Of a stretch of 64,000 nt of DNA, positions 6,266 through 13,888 are shown in pieces (within the stretch, counting starts at the first letter, position 1; each line of letters opens with the position of its first letter). Under the pieces are notes generated by a model. It saw nothing but the letters and a program-made list of their open reading frames with translations. It was not told the DNA's origin and did not search any database. This DNA is from Streptomyces iakyrus (GTDB taxonomy: Bacteria > Actinomycetota > Actinomycetes > Streptomycetales > Streptomycetaceae), in the NCBI RefSeq assembly GCF_000717055.1, contig NZ_JNXI01000004.1, positions 434,001 through 498,000 on the forward strand. Reading direction: 5' to 3'. A program made the translations under genes and the position numbers.

Positions 6266-7486
6266 ATGCGTGGTGGTGGTCCTTCGGTCCTGGGGATCGT
6301 GCTGGCGGGCGGCGAGGGCAAGCGGCTGATGCCCCTGACCGCGGACCGTGCCAAACCGGCGGTGACCTTCGGCGGCACGTACCGCCTGGTCGACTTCGTC
6401 CTGTCCAACCTCGTCAACGCCGATGTCCTGCGCATCTGCGTCCTGACGCAGTACAAGTCGCACTCGCTCGACCGGCACATCACGACCACCTGGCGGATGT
6501 CCAACCTGCTGGGCAACTACGTCACGCCCGTGCCCGCCCAGCAGCGCCTCGGCCCGCGCTGGTATCTGGGCAGCGCCGACGCGATCCTGCAGTCGCTGAA
6601 CCTCGTCTACGACGAGCAGCCCGAGTACGTCGCCGTATTCGGCGCCGACCACGTCTACCGCATGGACCCCCGCCAGATGCTCGCCCAGCACATCGAGAGC
6701 GGTGCGGGCGTGACCGTCGCCGGGATCCGGGTGCCGCGCACCGAGTCCTCGGCCTTCGGGGTGATCACCCCCGGCTCGGACGGGCAGACGGTGGAGCGCT
6801 TCCTGGAGAAGCCGTCGGCCCCGCCCGGCCTTGCGGACGACCCCGACTGCGTCTTCGCCTCGATGGGCAACTACATCTTCACCACCAAGGCCCTCATCGA
6901 GGCGCTCAAGCGGGACGCGGAGGACGGGGCCTCCGTGCACGACATGGGCGGGTCGATCCTGCCCCAGCTCACCGACCGGGGCGAGGCCGCGCTCTACGAC
7001 TTCAGCGCCAACCACGTGCCCGGCGAGACCACCCGCGACCAGGGCTACTGGCGGGACGTCGGGACACTGGACGCCTACTACGAGGCCCATATGGACCTCA
7101 TCGCCGAGCGCCCCGCGTTCAACCTGTACAATCGCAGCTGGCCGATCTACACCCACTCGTACCAGCTCTCGCCGGCCCGGTTCAACGCGGGCGGCATCGC
7201 CAGCGAGTCCATCATCAGCGCGGGCTGCCTGGTGCGCGGACAGGTCACGCGGTCCGTGCTGTCGCCGGGTGTGGTGGTCGACCCGGGGGCCGTGGTGCAG
7301 GGTTCGGTGCTGCACGACAACGTGCACATCGGCCGGGGCGCGGTGGTGCGCGGCGCCGTCCTCGACAAGAACGTCGAAGTGCCGCCGGGCGCGACCATCG
7401 GCGTCAACCCCGAGCGGGATGCGGAGCTCTACACGGTGTCCAAGGGCGGCGTGATCGCCCTGGGGAAGGGACAGTTGGTCACCTGA
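6266..7486 (+). CDS. glgC: glucose-1-phosphate adenylyltransferase (ADP-glucose pyrophosphorylase)
   Basis: 406 residues. Makes ADP-glucose and pyrophosphate from glucose-1-phosphate and ATP, the committed step of glycogen and alpha-glucan synthesis. The N-terminal nucleotidyltransferase fold shows the [11 protein letters not shown] loop, AKPAVTFGG, and [11 protein letters not shown] at the metal site. VERFLEKPS holds the lysine region for glucose-1-phosphate. The C-terminal left-handed beta-helix has hexapeptide repeats ([19 protein letters not shown]). The ATG at 6266 follows a ggggag site; GTG 6251 would add only five residues. It is probably cotranscribed with the upstream synthase. Confidence 0.95.
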
Positions 7487-7504
7487 GCCGCGCGGCGGTC
7501 CCGG

Positions 7505-11811: not shown

Positions 11812-13314
11812 ATGACGGTGACAGAGGACGGCCCGCAGGCGATGGACGAGGCGAGCGGGCTCTCGTACGGACCCGGCATCGACCCGGAACGCCTGGCCGT
11901 CTGCCTCGGTGTGCTGGAGGAGCTCGACAAGCTGGACGTCGACCACCCGGACGCCATCGCCGTCCGCCGGGCCACGGCCGGGATCTACCGCACGGTCAAG
12001 CAGCGCCGCCGCCAGGAGCGCCGGGCCGCCAAGACCGCCCACGACAAGGCGGTCACGGAGGCCACGGCGACCGGCTCCGCCCAGCGCATCGACGACGAGA
12101 CCGAGGGTCTGCTGCCGTCGTCGAACACCGAGGAGGGCAGGATCGCGGGGATACTCCAGCGCCCCCGCTCCTGCTACACCTGCAAGACCCGGTACGTGGA
12201 AGTCGACTACTTCTACCACCAGCTCTGTCCGGACTGCGCCCGGGTGAACCGCGAGAAGCGCGACGTCCGCGCCGAGCTCACCGGCAAGCGCGCGCTGCTC
12301 ACCGGCGGCCGGGCCAAGATCGGCATGTACATCGCGCTGCGGCTGCTGCGCGACGGCGCGCACACCACGGTCACCACCCGCTTCCCCAAGGACGCCATCC
12401 GCCGCTTCAAGGCGATGGACGACTCCGCGGACTGGATGCACCGCCTGGAGGTCGTCGGCATCGACCTGCGCGATCCGGCCCAGGCCGTGGCCCTCGCCGA
12501 CCAGGTCGCCGAGGCGGGCCCGCTCGACATCCTCGTGAACAACGCGACGCAGACCGTGCGCCGCCTGCCCTCCGCCTACGCCGCGCTGGTCGAGGGCGAG
12601 AGCGCCCCGCTGCCCGCCGGGGAGCTCCCCGCCCATCACGTCATCGGCGCCTTCAACTCCGGTGCGGTCGACGGCATCGCCGCGCTGCCGCTGGGCACGA
12701 GCGGGCTCGACGCCCAGCAGGTCGCCGACCTCGCCCTGGTCGCGGGCAACGCCAGCGTCGAACGGCACCTGGACGGCACGGCGATCGACGCGGGCGGGCT
12801 GGTGCCCGACGTGGTCGACTCCAACACCTGGGTGCAGACGATCGAGCAGATCTCGCCCGTCGAGCTGCTGGAAACCCAGCTGTGCAATTACACGGCGCCG
12901 TTCATCCTGATCAGCAAGCTGCGGCCGGCCATGGCCGAGGCGGCGAAGAAGGCGGAGAGCGGGCGCGCCTACGTCGTGAACGTGTCCGCGATGGAGGGCG
13001 TCTTCGGACGTGGGTACAAGGGCGCCGGGCATCCGAACACCAACGCCGCGAAGGCCGCGATGAACATGGTCACGCGCACCAGCGCCCAGGAGATGTTCCA
13101 GACCGACGGCATCCTGATGACCTCGGTCGACACGGGCTGGATCACGGACGAGCGGCCGCACTACGACAAGCTGCGGCTCGCCGAGGCCGGGTTCCACGCG
13201 CCGCTGGACCTTGTCGACGGAGCGGCCCGCGTCTACGACCCCATCGTGCGGGGTGAGGCGGGAGAGGACCTCTACGGCGTCTTCCTGAAGGACTACGCGC
13301 CCGGCAAGTGGTAG
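11812..13314 (+). CDS. SDR-fold protein with internal CxxC zinc ribbon, catalytic Tyr absent
   Basis: 500 residues. The N-terminal about 115 residues are helical and charged (TVKQRRRQERRAAKTAHDKA). A four-cysteine ribbon follows: C121, C124, C139 and C142 (CYTCK ... CPDC), likely binding zinc. An SDR Rossmann domain starts at about 155 with LLTGGRAKIGMYIAL. It has VGIDLRDP, ILVNNATQTV and NVSAMEG (the catalytic serine position). The usual YxxxK reads TNAAK, so the catalytic tyrosine is replaced. A long insertion (about 255-345) separates the halves. It may therefore bind a nucleotide without ordinary reductase chemistry. Function unknown. ATG start; no partner gene is evident. Confidence 0.7.
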   Translation: MTVTEDGPQAMDEASGLSYGPGIDPERLAVCLGVLEELDKLDVDHPDAIAVRRATAGIYRTVKQRRRQERRAAKTAHDKAVTEATATGSAQRIDDETEGLLPSSNTEEGRIAGILQRPRSCYTCKTRYVEVDYFYHQLCPDCARVNREKRDVRAELTGKRALLTGGRAKIGMYIALRLLRDGAHTTVTTRFPKDAIRRFKAMDDSADWMHRLEVVGIDLRDPAQAVALADQVAEAGPLDILVNNATQTVRRLPSAYAALVEGESAPLPAGELPAHHVIGAFNSGAVDGIAALPLGTSGLDAQQVADLALVAGNASVERHLDGTAIDAGGLVPDVVDSNTWVQTIEQISPVELLETQLCNYTAPFILISKLRPAMAEAAKKAESGRAYVVNVSAMEGVFGRGYKGAGHPNTNAAKAAMNMVTRTSAQEMFQTDGILMTSVDTGWITDERPHYDKLRLAEAGFHAPLDLVDGAARVYDPIVRGEAGEDLYGVFLKDYAPGKW

Positions 13315-13714
13315 TCGCCCCTGTCCCGTGACGGGCTGTCAAGGACCGTCCGGAAAGCGCCGTCGTCGGCATACGCCGTTCGGGTGATCTGTAAAACGCC
13401 CGTCGGCGTACAAAACGGTACGTAAACCGGAGTTGAACGTTGCCTGACGCGCGATCGTTACCGGTTGTTTTCAGCCCCATCGAGCGGGGCCCCGCTCATT
13501 TGGTTAGTCTGATCCGGACGGACAGCAGCACGGGGTCCTACCCACACCCACGGTCCGTCATGGGACCAGCCGGTTCACCACGGCCTGCTCTCCCGTGAGT
13601 CGACCGGCGCCACCGCGTCCGAACTGCATGTGACATCTCAGGCCCGAGCGGGCGTCAGGCGCAGCAGGACCGGCGCGTACGTCCCGAGGGTGACCGACAC
13701 ATAAGGAGTGCGCG
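13315..13714. other. 400-base non-coding region upstream of the 57-residue peptide
   Basis: It contains a perfect 16-base palindrome, GAGCGGGGCCCCGCTC at 13482-13497. A TTAGTCT element near 13504 could be a -10 box, giving the peptide gene a leader of about 200 bases. GACGGAC near 13517 can pair with GTCCGTC near 13554. No known RNA family was recognised. Confidence 0.35.
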
Positions 13715-13888
13715 GTGACACCGGAGAAGACGAATCGAGAACAGCGCCCCAAGGAACGCGGCGAGCGCGCCGGCCGACGGGCCGACGAGCTCGGCAGCCT
13801 CGACGTGTGGGCCCGTTCGGCCCCGATCCGCCTCGCGGGCTACGAGGAAGACCTCGCGGAGCCCCACATCCTGCCCAGCGTCGACTGA
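13715..13888 (+). CDS. 57-residue peptide of unknown function
   Basis: A small gene with a near-perfect AAGGAG ribosome site 7 bases before the GTG start. The product begins MTPEKTNREQ and has a very charged Arg/Lys/Glu N-terminal half. Its C-terminal half contains ELGSLDVWARSAPIRLAGY, followed by an acidic stretch and ending in HILPSVD. It has no cysteine, no signal peptide and no membrane segment. The charged head plus distinctive tail recalls small regulatory or adaptor proteins, or a RiPP-type precursor, but no modifying enzyme adjoins it. Third-position GC fits real coding sequence. A leaderless GNAT gene begins 56 bases later. I do not recognise the family with certainty. Confidence 0.7.
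   Translation: MTPEKTNREQRPKERGERAGRRADELGSLDVWARSAPIRLAGYEEDLAEPHILPSVD

Follow-up and report, generated by a model that had tools for sequence, protein, structure and literature searches.

Introduction

Many pathway-specific regulators govern specialised metabolism in Streptomyces, and little is understood of how it connects to primary metabolism. AfsS, a protein of about 60 residues, is conserved in Streptomyces and linked to specialised metabolism. MbtH-like proteins are tiny, cluster-borne, folded domains that are bound to adenylation domains. The FxSxx-COOH precursor peptides of actinobacteria are short proteins that are conserved at their very C-terminus. DUF6059/OvmZ-type accessory proteins are likewise small and recur in Streptomyces gene clusters. 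DUF6059 is listed for a coprisidin cluster (PMC10100984), and ovmZ orthologues are reported from clusters for prenylated compounds (PMC3326630).

The window analysed here, a stretch of 64,000 nucleotides from Streptomyces iakyrus, contains a 57-codon gene for a protein with a conserved C-terminal tail. This protein is like AfsS in size, conservation and a probable link to specialised metabolism, but its sequence is probably different. Many of its relatives are tiny and cluster-borne, as MbtH-like proteins are, whereas the tail protein has no Pfam match and its structural model is mostly unstructured, at low confidence. A conserved extreme C-terminus is common to the tail protein and the FxSxx-COOH precursors, with a different motif in each; the NCBIfam model of the latter matched none of 30 family members at E ≤ 5, and no radical-SAM gene was annotated near tail peptides in the plasmid contexts examined. 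DUF6059/OvmZ sequences are unrelated to the tail family by annotation, and the tail family also has an autonomous member in the core genome.

Results

The gene and its distribution

The features of the locus are collected in Table 1. The coordinates given in the preliminary description, the frame and the GTG start were all correct in the window sequence, and the AAGGAG ribosome-binding site was present. The ribosome-site and start region, ACACATAAGGAGTGCGCG-GTGACA, was unchanged in 92 of 159 homologous loci. The same description considered the gene too short for routine gene calling. This did not hold, since many database records list it as a 'hypothetical protein', and it is therefore not generally overlooked by annotation. 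The annotated starts of some homologues extend into the leader (P0048, P0061). Because the distances between the conserved leader block and the start differ among leaders by non-multiples of three, longer annotated N-termini such as that of P0061 are probably start-site errors.

Table 1. Features of the tail-protein locus, in positions of the window
Feature	Position	Strand	Basis
SDR gene (500 residues)	11812..13314		
GAGC-N8-GCTC inverted repeat together with the -10-like element directly after it	13479..13511		recurs in several Streptomyces homologues
GAGCGGGGCCCCGCTC palindrome just 5' of the -10-like element, possible operator	13482..13497	+	homologue comparison; terminator-like in scan too
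TTAGTCTG, a conserved element resembling TTANNCTG and probably the -10 region of a promoter, 211 nt 5' of the start codon	13504..13511	+	homologue comparison
GGCGCCACCGCGTCC, leader block that hardly varies; its CACCGCG is the complement of CGCGGTG at the start codon	13606..13620	+	leader comparison
AAGGAG ribosome-binding site	13703..13708	+	read in the window and homologous loci
Small tail-protein gene, 57 codons, GTG start (13715), TGA stop (13886-13888)	13715..13888	+	conserved family, purifying selection
Conserved tail SLDVWARSAPIRLAGYEEDLAEPHILPSVD, codons 28-57	13796..13885	+	dN/dS about 0.09
Part common to cluster-borne members, codons 36-57, AP-x-RLAG-x-acidic-EPHI-xx-(S/G)(V/I)D-COOH	13820..13885	+	motif/profile comparison
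GNAT gene	from 13945		

A first search with the window protein matched 946 protein clusters at E ≤ 1e-3, and the best 120 of these were all from Streptomyces wherever an organism was named. Matches were found in 176 of 199 Streptomyces genomes (E ≤ 1e-5) and, with a divergent query, in 331 of 392 (E ≤ 1e-6). In a family-level sample of Streptomycetaceae, 66 of 150 genomes had a match, in 3 of 17 genera (Streptomyces and two others), and a phylum-level sample gave 11 of 396 genomes, every one Streptomyces. The gene is normally single-copy, with more than one match in 4 of the 392 Streptomyces genomes (G108, G196, G728 and G879). A conserved family with a characteristic tail had been proposed, together with a tblastn-type check for homologues elsewhere; the searches found tail-conserved homologues in most Streptomyces genomes. 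The reading frame is a real gene. Its short length would suit a chance or non-coding reading frame, but the probability of this is practically negligible in view of the distribution above and a dN/dS of 0.09 in the tail, and selection at the codon level already refutes it.

The window protein matched no family in Pfam, NCBIfam or PHROG. When 30 family members were compared with Pfam, two chance matches to unrelated families were obtained (E 0.16); NCBIfam gave isolated chance matches and no precursor family at E ≤ 5, and for nine cluster-type peptides (see below) nothing beyond one chance match. The sole match in the PDB, at E 0.94, was taken as chance. The family was absent from phage records, viral contigs and PHROGs, and a phage protein was rejected on this ground. 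Full-text literature searches with tail strings found nothing, the search listings on small conserved or cluster-borne proteins showed no description of the tail family, and searches with locus tags around SCO0958 returned no paper naming any of them except SCO0958 itself. The tail family is thus apparently undescribed as a protein family.

Constraint on the tail

Sequence comparison indicates strong constraint on the tail and not on the head. dN/dS was 0.09 for the tail (codons 28–57) and 0.41 for the head (codons 2–27), calculated as mean dN over mean dS with NG86 counting and the window copy as reference, from 125 comparisons for the head and 121 of these for the tail, as pairs without usable dS were dropped. 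In a divergent alignment of 30 members, the head was variable in sequence and length whereas the tail was nearly fixed, and W32, P37, A41, G42, E49, I52 and the C-terminal D57 were invariant. The terminal Asp lies at a nearly constant distance from the motif. It was present in every one of 118 distinct sequences taken from 159 homologous loci, in 37/37 cluster-type members and in 10/10 listed plasmid or cluster members, counts for which the search patterns favoured this end. An AF2 model built from the 30-member alignment had a mean pLDDT of 59.7, a pTM of 0.20 and a single short helix at residues 28–34. Such a poor model is what a disordered protein with a linear motif would be expected to give, and is no proof of one.

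Mimicry of the FtsZ C-terminal peptide, by which the tail would bind the partners of the FtsZ tail, was considered because the end of FtsZ from the same genome, EELDVPDFLK, loosely resembles EDDLAEPHIL. Few residues correspond, and nothing in FtsZ matches the strict ID or VD end or the LAG part, so that this seems extremely improbable.

The promoter-like region and leader

A gap of about 400 bases had been noted upstream of the gene and was confirmed between the stop of the SDR gene and the GTG start. The promoter-like region and a leader of about 200 nt persist while the neighbouring genes change. The inverted repeat recurs before TTANNCTG in several Streptomyces homologues, and a sigma-70 consensus scan gave no promoter at the position of the -10-like element. 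The wider promoter element had one exact copy and one match with three mismatches in the genome (controls 0), on account of which a common operator or regulon was rejected.

The core of the leader block, GCGCCACCGCG, was found in 137 of 159 leaders; a single copy of the 15-base block was found in the genome, close to the chance expectation (control also 1). Ensemble folding predicted pairing of the block with the start (more than four expected pairs) in 21 of 58 leaders, a count without a shuffled control behind it that covers 59 chosen leaders less one lacking the block. The window's own leader gave 9.2 expected pairs and the tested leaders of a second genus gave pairing in 0 of 12; in one lineage the block is retained but the start region has ceased to be complementary to it. 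Consensus folding of the leader gave no clear-cut structure. A function mainly at the RNA level, in which a regulatory leader would mask the start codon and the peptide would be incidental, would account for a near-invariant block complementary to the start codon and for the strong pairing predicted in the window. However, the pairing is confined to part of the leaders and lost in the lineage just mentioned, the block is missing from the two plasmid copies whose upstream DNA was read, and an Rfam search of the leader found no family, with only a weak microRNA-model match on the opposite strand (E 0.5). Furthermore, the amino-acid sequence is under strong selection, and we regard the RNA reading as very unlikely.

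The chromosomal neighbours

The GNAT gene reported on the other flank was present; there is no obvious ribosome site before its ATG, and the sequence is compatible with a leaderless start. The 72 canonical loci from Streptomyces that exceeded 9 kb had SDR genes in 67 cases, WS/DGAT in 63, amidase in 64 and GNAT in 53. None of these four families was found at 16 loci of the two other genera; this comparison also covered three divergent Streptomyces loci, two of which retained the SDR gene. The conserved neighbours that had been hoped for therefore exist among close relatives but not across genera, and a conserved operon partner at the chromosomal locus was rejected as the neighbours differ between genera. 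The proposed neighbour check was informative in another place, namely at paralogues elsewhere and not at the window locus. The SDR protein has an extra, cysteine-containing N-terminal part (CYTCKTRYVEVDYFYHQLCPDC), and its gene stays beside a WS/DGAT gene in many Streptomyces loci.

A wider family of tail peptides

The tail motif was also found on short proteins with unrelated heads, approximately as PPxRLAGx(D/E)3..EPH(I/V)xRGID-COOH. A 43-residue protein, found as a weak match and encoded behind a SAM synthetase gene, with a DUF6059 gene and a halogenase-like gene adjoining, shares only its last 20 or so residues, and a plasmid search with its tail gave more short proteins with unrelated heads and an identical end. 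The window protein carries the family motif LAG-x-acidic-...-E-x-H-(I/V)-...-D-COOH at its extreme end. A single hhalign comparison of a mostly chromosomal profile with a gene-cluster profile gave 97.9 % and E 5e-13, over 24 C-terminal columns only. With a profile of ten cluster-type peptides and a threshold of E ≤ 1e-3, matches were obtained in 193 of the 392 Streptomyces genomes, with both types mixed. Against the window's own genome it gave no match at this threshold, the window copy included; this genome therefore lacks any additional member of the cluster type, and it is hhalign and intermediate sequences that connect the two sets. By its sequence, the window gene is a stand-alone member of a family of tiny proteins with a common C-terminal tail.

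From the matches of the cluster-type profile, 40 loci were fetched, of which 37 were not of the chromosomal type. Their 37 peptides were 33–68 residues long (with starts chosen by script) and ended in Asp in 37/37 and in Ile-Asp in 36/37, under an extraction pattern that required Arg, Gly/Ser/Asn, Ile/Val/Met and Asp at the end. With a looser pattern that left most end positions free, Arg-(Gly/Ser)-(Ile/Met)-Asp was found in all 30 loci recovered, and the remaining ten loci, read without a pattern, had the identical kind of end. Tail proteins were also present in at least four genomes without a chromosomal-type match (G035, G043, G060 and G089). Six peptides have Cys at position -5 and end in HICRGID or HICRSID (L339, L345, L347, L357, L358 and L362); L339 and L347 adjoin a sortase gene, and L339 and L357 belong to small Streptomyces genomes (G043 and G089) that lack a chromosomal-type match. 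This Cys-bearing subgroup may be a lineage-specific replacement.

Additional chromosomal-type copies were found in a few genomes. That on contig 30 of G196 resembles a duplicate of the canonical locus, and the others have surroundings that resemble gene clusters. In G108, at both chromosome ends, and in G879 the extra copy lies directly 3' of an AMP-ligase gene; a cluster with two MFS genes, flavodoxin, SnoaL and AMP-ligase genes holds it in both genomes (L169, in the terminal inverted repeats of G108, and L276 in G879). Linkage to the ligase was rejected, as such ligases occur in 64 of 199 genomes (E ≤ 1e-60) and only one of 30 fetched ligase loci, that of G108, had the tail; G879 lies outside this sample and carries both. 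The extra copy of G728 keeps part of the canonical leader; it is flanked on one side by genes of methylmalonyl-CoA-mutase type, for B12 binding and for a P450, and on the opposite side by an AAA-domain gene that looks LuxR-LAL-like on inspection. One plasmid copy stands between a thioesterase gene and a gene annotated with a ParB N-terminal domain (StrR-like by reading, HTH by Pfam). Linkage to StrR-like genes was likewise rejected, since such genes occur in 82 plasmid records and a chromosomal-type peptide in 4.

Gene-cluster surroundings

Plasmid contexts were read in 14 of 15 records of a first set (H33 left out; 3 of the 14 without usable annotation), in four more of 16 in a second (H43, H45, H47 and H50, the last of which looks like chance; Mesorhizobium and Rhizobium matches were left out of the context reading) and in two new ones among four in a third. 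The arrangements included metF–peptide–DAHP synthase, metF–peptide inside a phenazine cluster, metK–peptide, and metK–adoK–metH–metF–(ahcY)–peptide–DUF6059–KASIII–mevalonate genes (two cases cut by the stretch examined; H40, of the metK–adoK–metH–metF type, was read from sequence with Pfam). Further arrangements were PPTase–peptide in PKS clusters and condensation domain–peptide in a type II PKS cluster. Tail peptides occurred in type II PKS, NRPS-like, phenazine and meroterpenoid clusters.

DUF6059 genes lie near tail peptides in several of the plasmid clusters, and an 'OvmZ protein' gene lies near one plasmid tail peptide. The repeated proximity of DUF6059 genes (L283 and L284, both 7145–7489; L288, 7289–7615; L289, 7177–7455; L363, 5324–5647; L364, 5083–5406; L277, 9417–9743, confirmed there as PF19534) could reflect a functional pair.

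The location in gene clusters, the small size and the fixed C-terminus would suit the precursor of a ribosomally made, modified peptide, as the preliminary description had suggested, in which the constant tail would be either the core or the recognition site of an enzyme. This suggestion was not supported and appears quite unlikely: the would-be core is nearly constant across very different clusters, the heads are variable and unrelated, at E ≤ 5 NCBIfam precursor families matched none of the 30 members, and the annotation of the plasmid contexts examined showed no enzyme of the radical-SAM, YcaO or lanthionine type, where some neighbours are named just 'ATP-binding protein' or 'hypothetical'.

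Neighbouring genes were counted in the 40 fetched loci with queries for SAM-cycle, PKS, condensation, PPTase, acyl-CoA carboxylase and related markers at E ≤ 1e-30. SAM-cycle genes were found in 6 loci and other biosynthetic markers in 17, with a union of 20. The other 20 loci had no cluster marker at this threshold; three of these 20 were of the chromosomal type, and two of the 20 lay behind a sortase gene. The 72 canonical loci serve as a control for place rather than for random genome positions; there, a single match to the non-canonical queries was obtained (KASIII), and SAM-cycle genes were found in 0/72. Biosynthetic surroundings were seen at many paralogues and not at the window's chromosomal locus.

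The gene immediately upstream was tabulated by hand for 41 loci, a table that leaves out chromosomal-type loci and 17 loci without a classified same-strand upstream gene and includes several near-identical plasmids, so that its rows are not independent and it is a description and not a test. SAM-cycle genes stood upstream in 20 of the 41 (metF 10, ahcY 6, metK 4), and the other 21 had condensation domain genes (5), PPTase genes (3) and various others (13), among the varied ones StrR-like, SARP, aldehyde dehydrogenase, FMN reductase, AMP ligase and transposase genes. With upstream genes so varied, no one enzyme stands out as the partner.

For strain Je 1-369, the published furaquinocin K/L cluster has Orf8–Orf12 assigned to SAM recycling and, directly after them, Orf13, named 'surface protein' (PMC9686526). 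Two tail-family members, P0228 and one on NZ_CP107868, bear the same annotation. By this name and its position, Orf13 is very probably a member of the tail family. In the passages found of an endophenazine mutational study (PMC3326630) and of the mfq cluster paper (PMC12814520), a tail-type gene is not mentioned.

The tail proteins could be dedicated modulators of a SAM or methionine-cycle enzyme, as a small subunit, stabiliser or inhibitor, with the chromosomal copy acting on a housekeeping enzyme and the cluster copies on the cluster-encoded metF, metK, metH or ahcY products. The SAM-cycle genes upstream in about half of the tabulated loci, operons such as metK–adoK–metH–metF–(ahcY)–peptide and the position of furaquinocin Orf13 behind Orf8–12 (PMC9686526) all agree with such a role. 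However, the remaining 21 upstream genes encode other functions (PPTase, condensation, SARP, AMP ligase, biotin carboxylase and others), and SAM-cycle genes were present at only 6 of the 40 fetched loci and at none of the canonical ones, which makes this role unlikely.

Discussion

We favour a reading in which the protein is a mostly disordered docking protein whose C-terminus binds a common partner of Streptomycetaceae in specialised metabolism, and we put the chance that it is right at about even. The C-terminal 22–30 or so residues would act as the docking peptide, and its partner would be conserved in Streptomycetaceae. Since many relatives lie inside antibiotic-type clusters, the tail probably binds a common partner that is involved in making such compounds; this partner is perhaps on the supply side, because SAM-cycle and PPTase genes are frequent immediate neighbours. 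All tail peptides may address one shared partner, the chromosomal copy being the input of the core genome and the cluster-borne copies the inputs dedicated to pathways. Binding would then adjust the supply of precursors or cofactors, or the general control, of specialised metabolism. A peptide regulator or an enzyme-targeting tail, also named in the preliminary description, comes close to the docking reading.

A more far-reaching version, which is tentative and rather doubtful, is that this one motif is a genus-wide 'plug' for a single, conserved receptor. The core copy would report the state of the cell through its regulated leader, and the plugs of unrelated gene clusters would join the same hub that allocates precursors and cofactors.

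If the docking reading is true, a tag common to otherwise unrelated tiny proteins of diverse gene clusters, together with a core copy in most species, would point to an unknown common factor, for which the peptide of about 22 residues would be a concrete bait. The tail family could likewise account for ORFs that have stayed unassigned in published clusters, and could aid heterologous expression.
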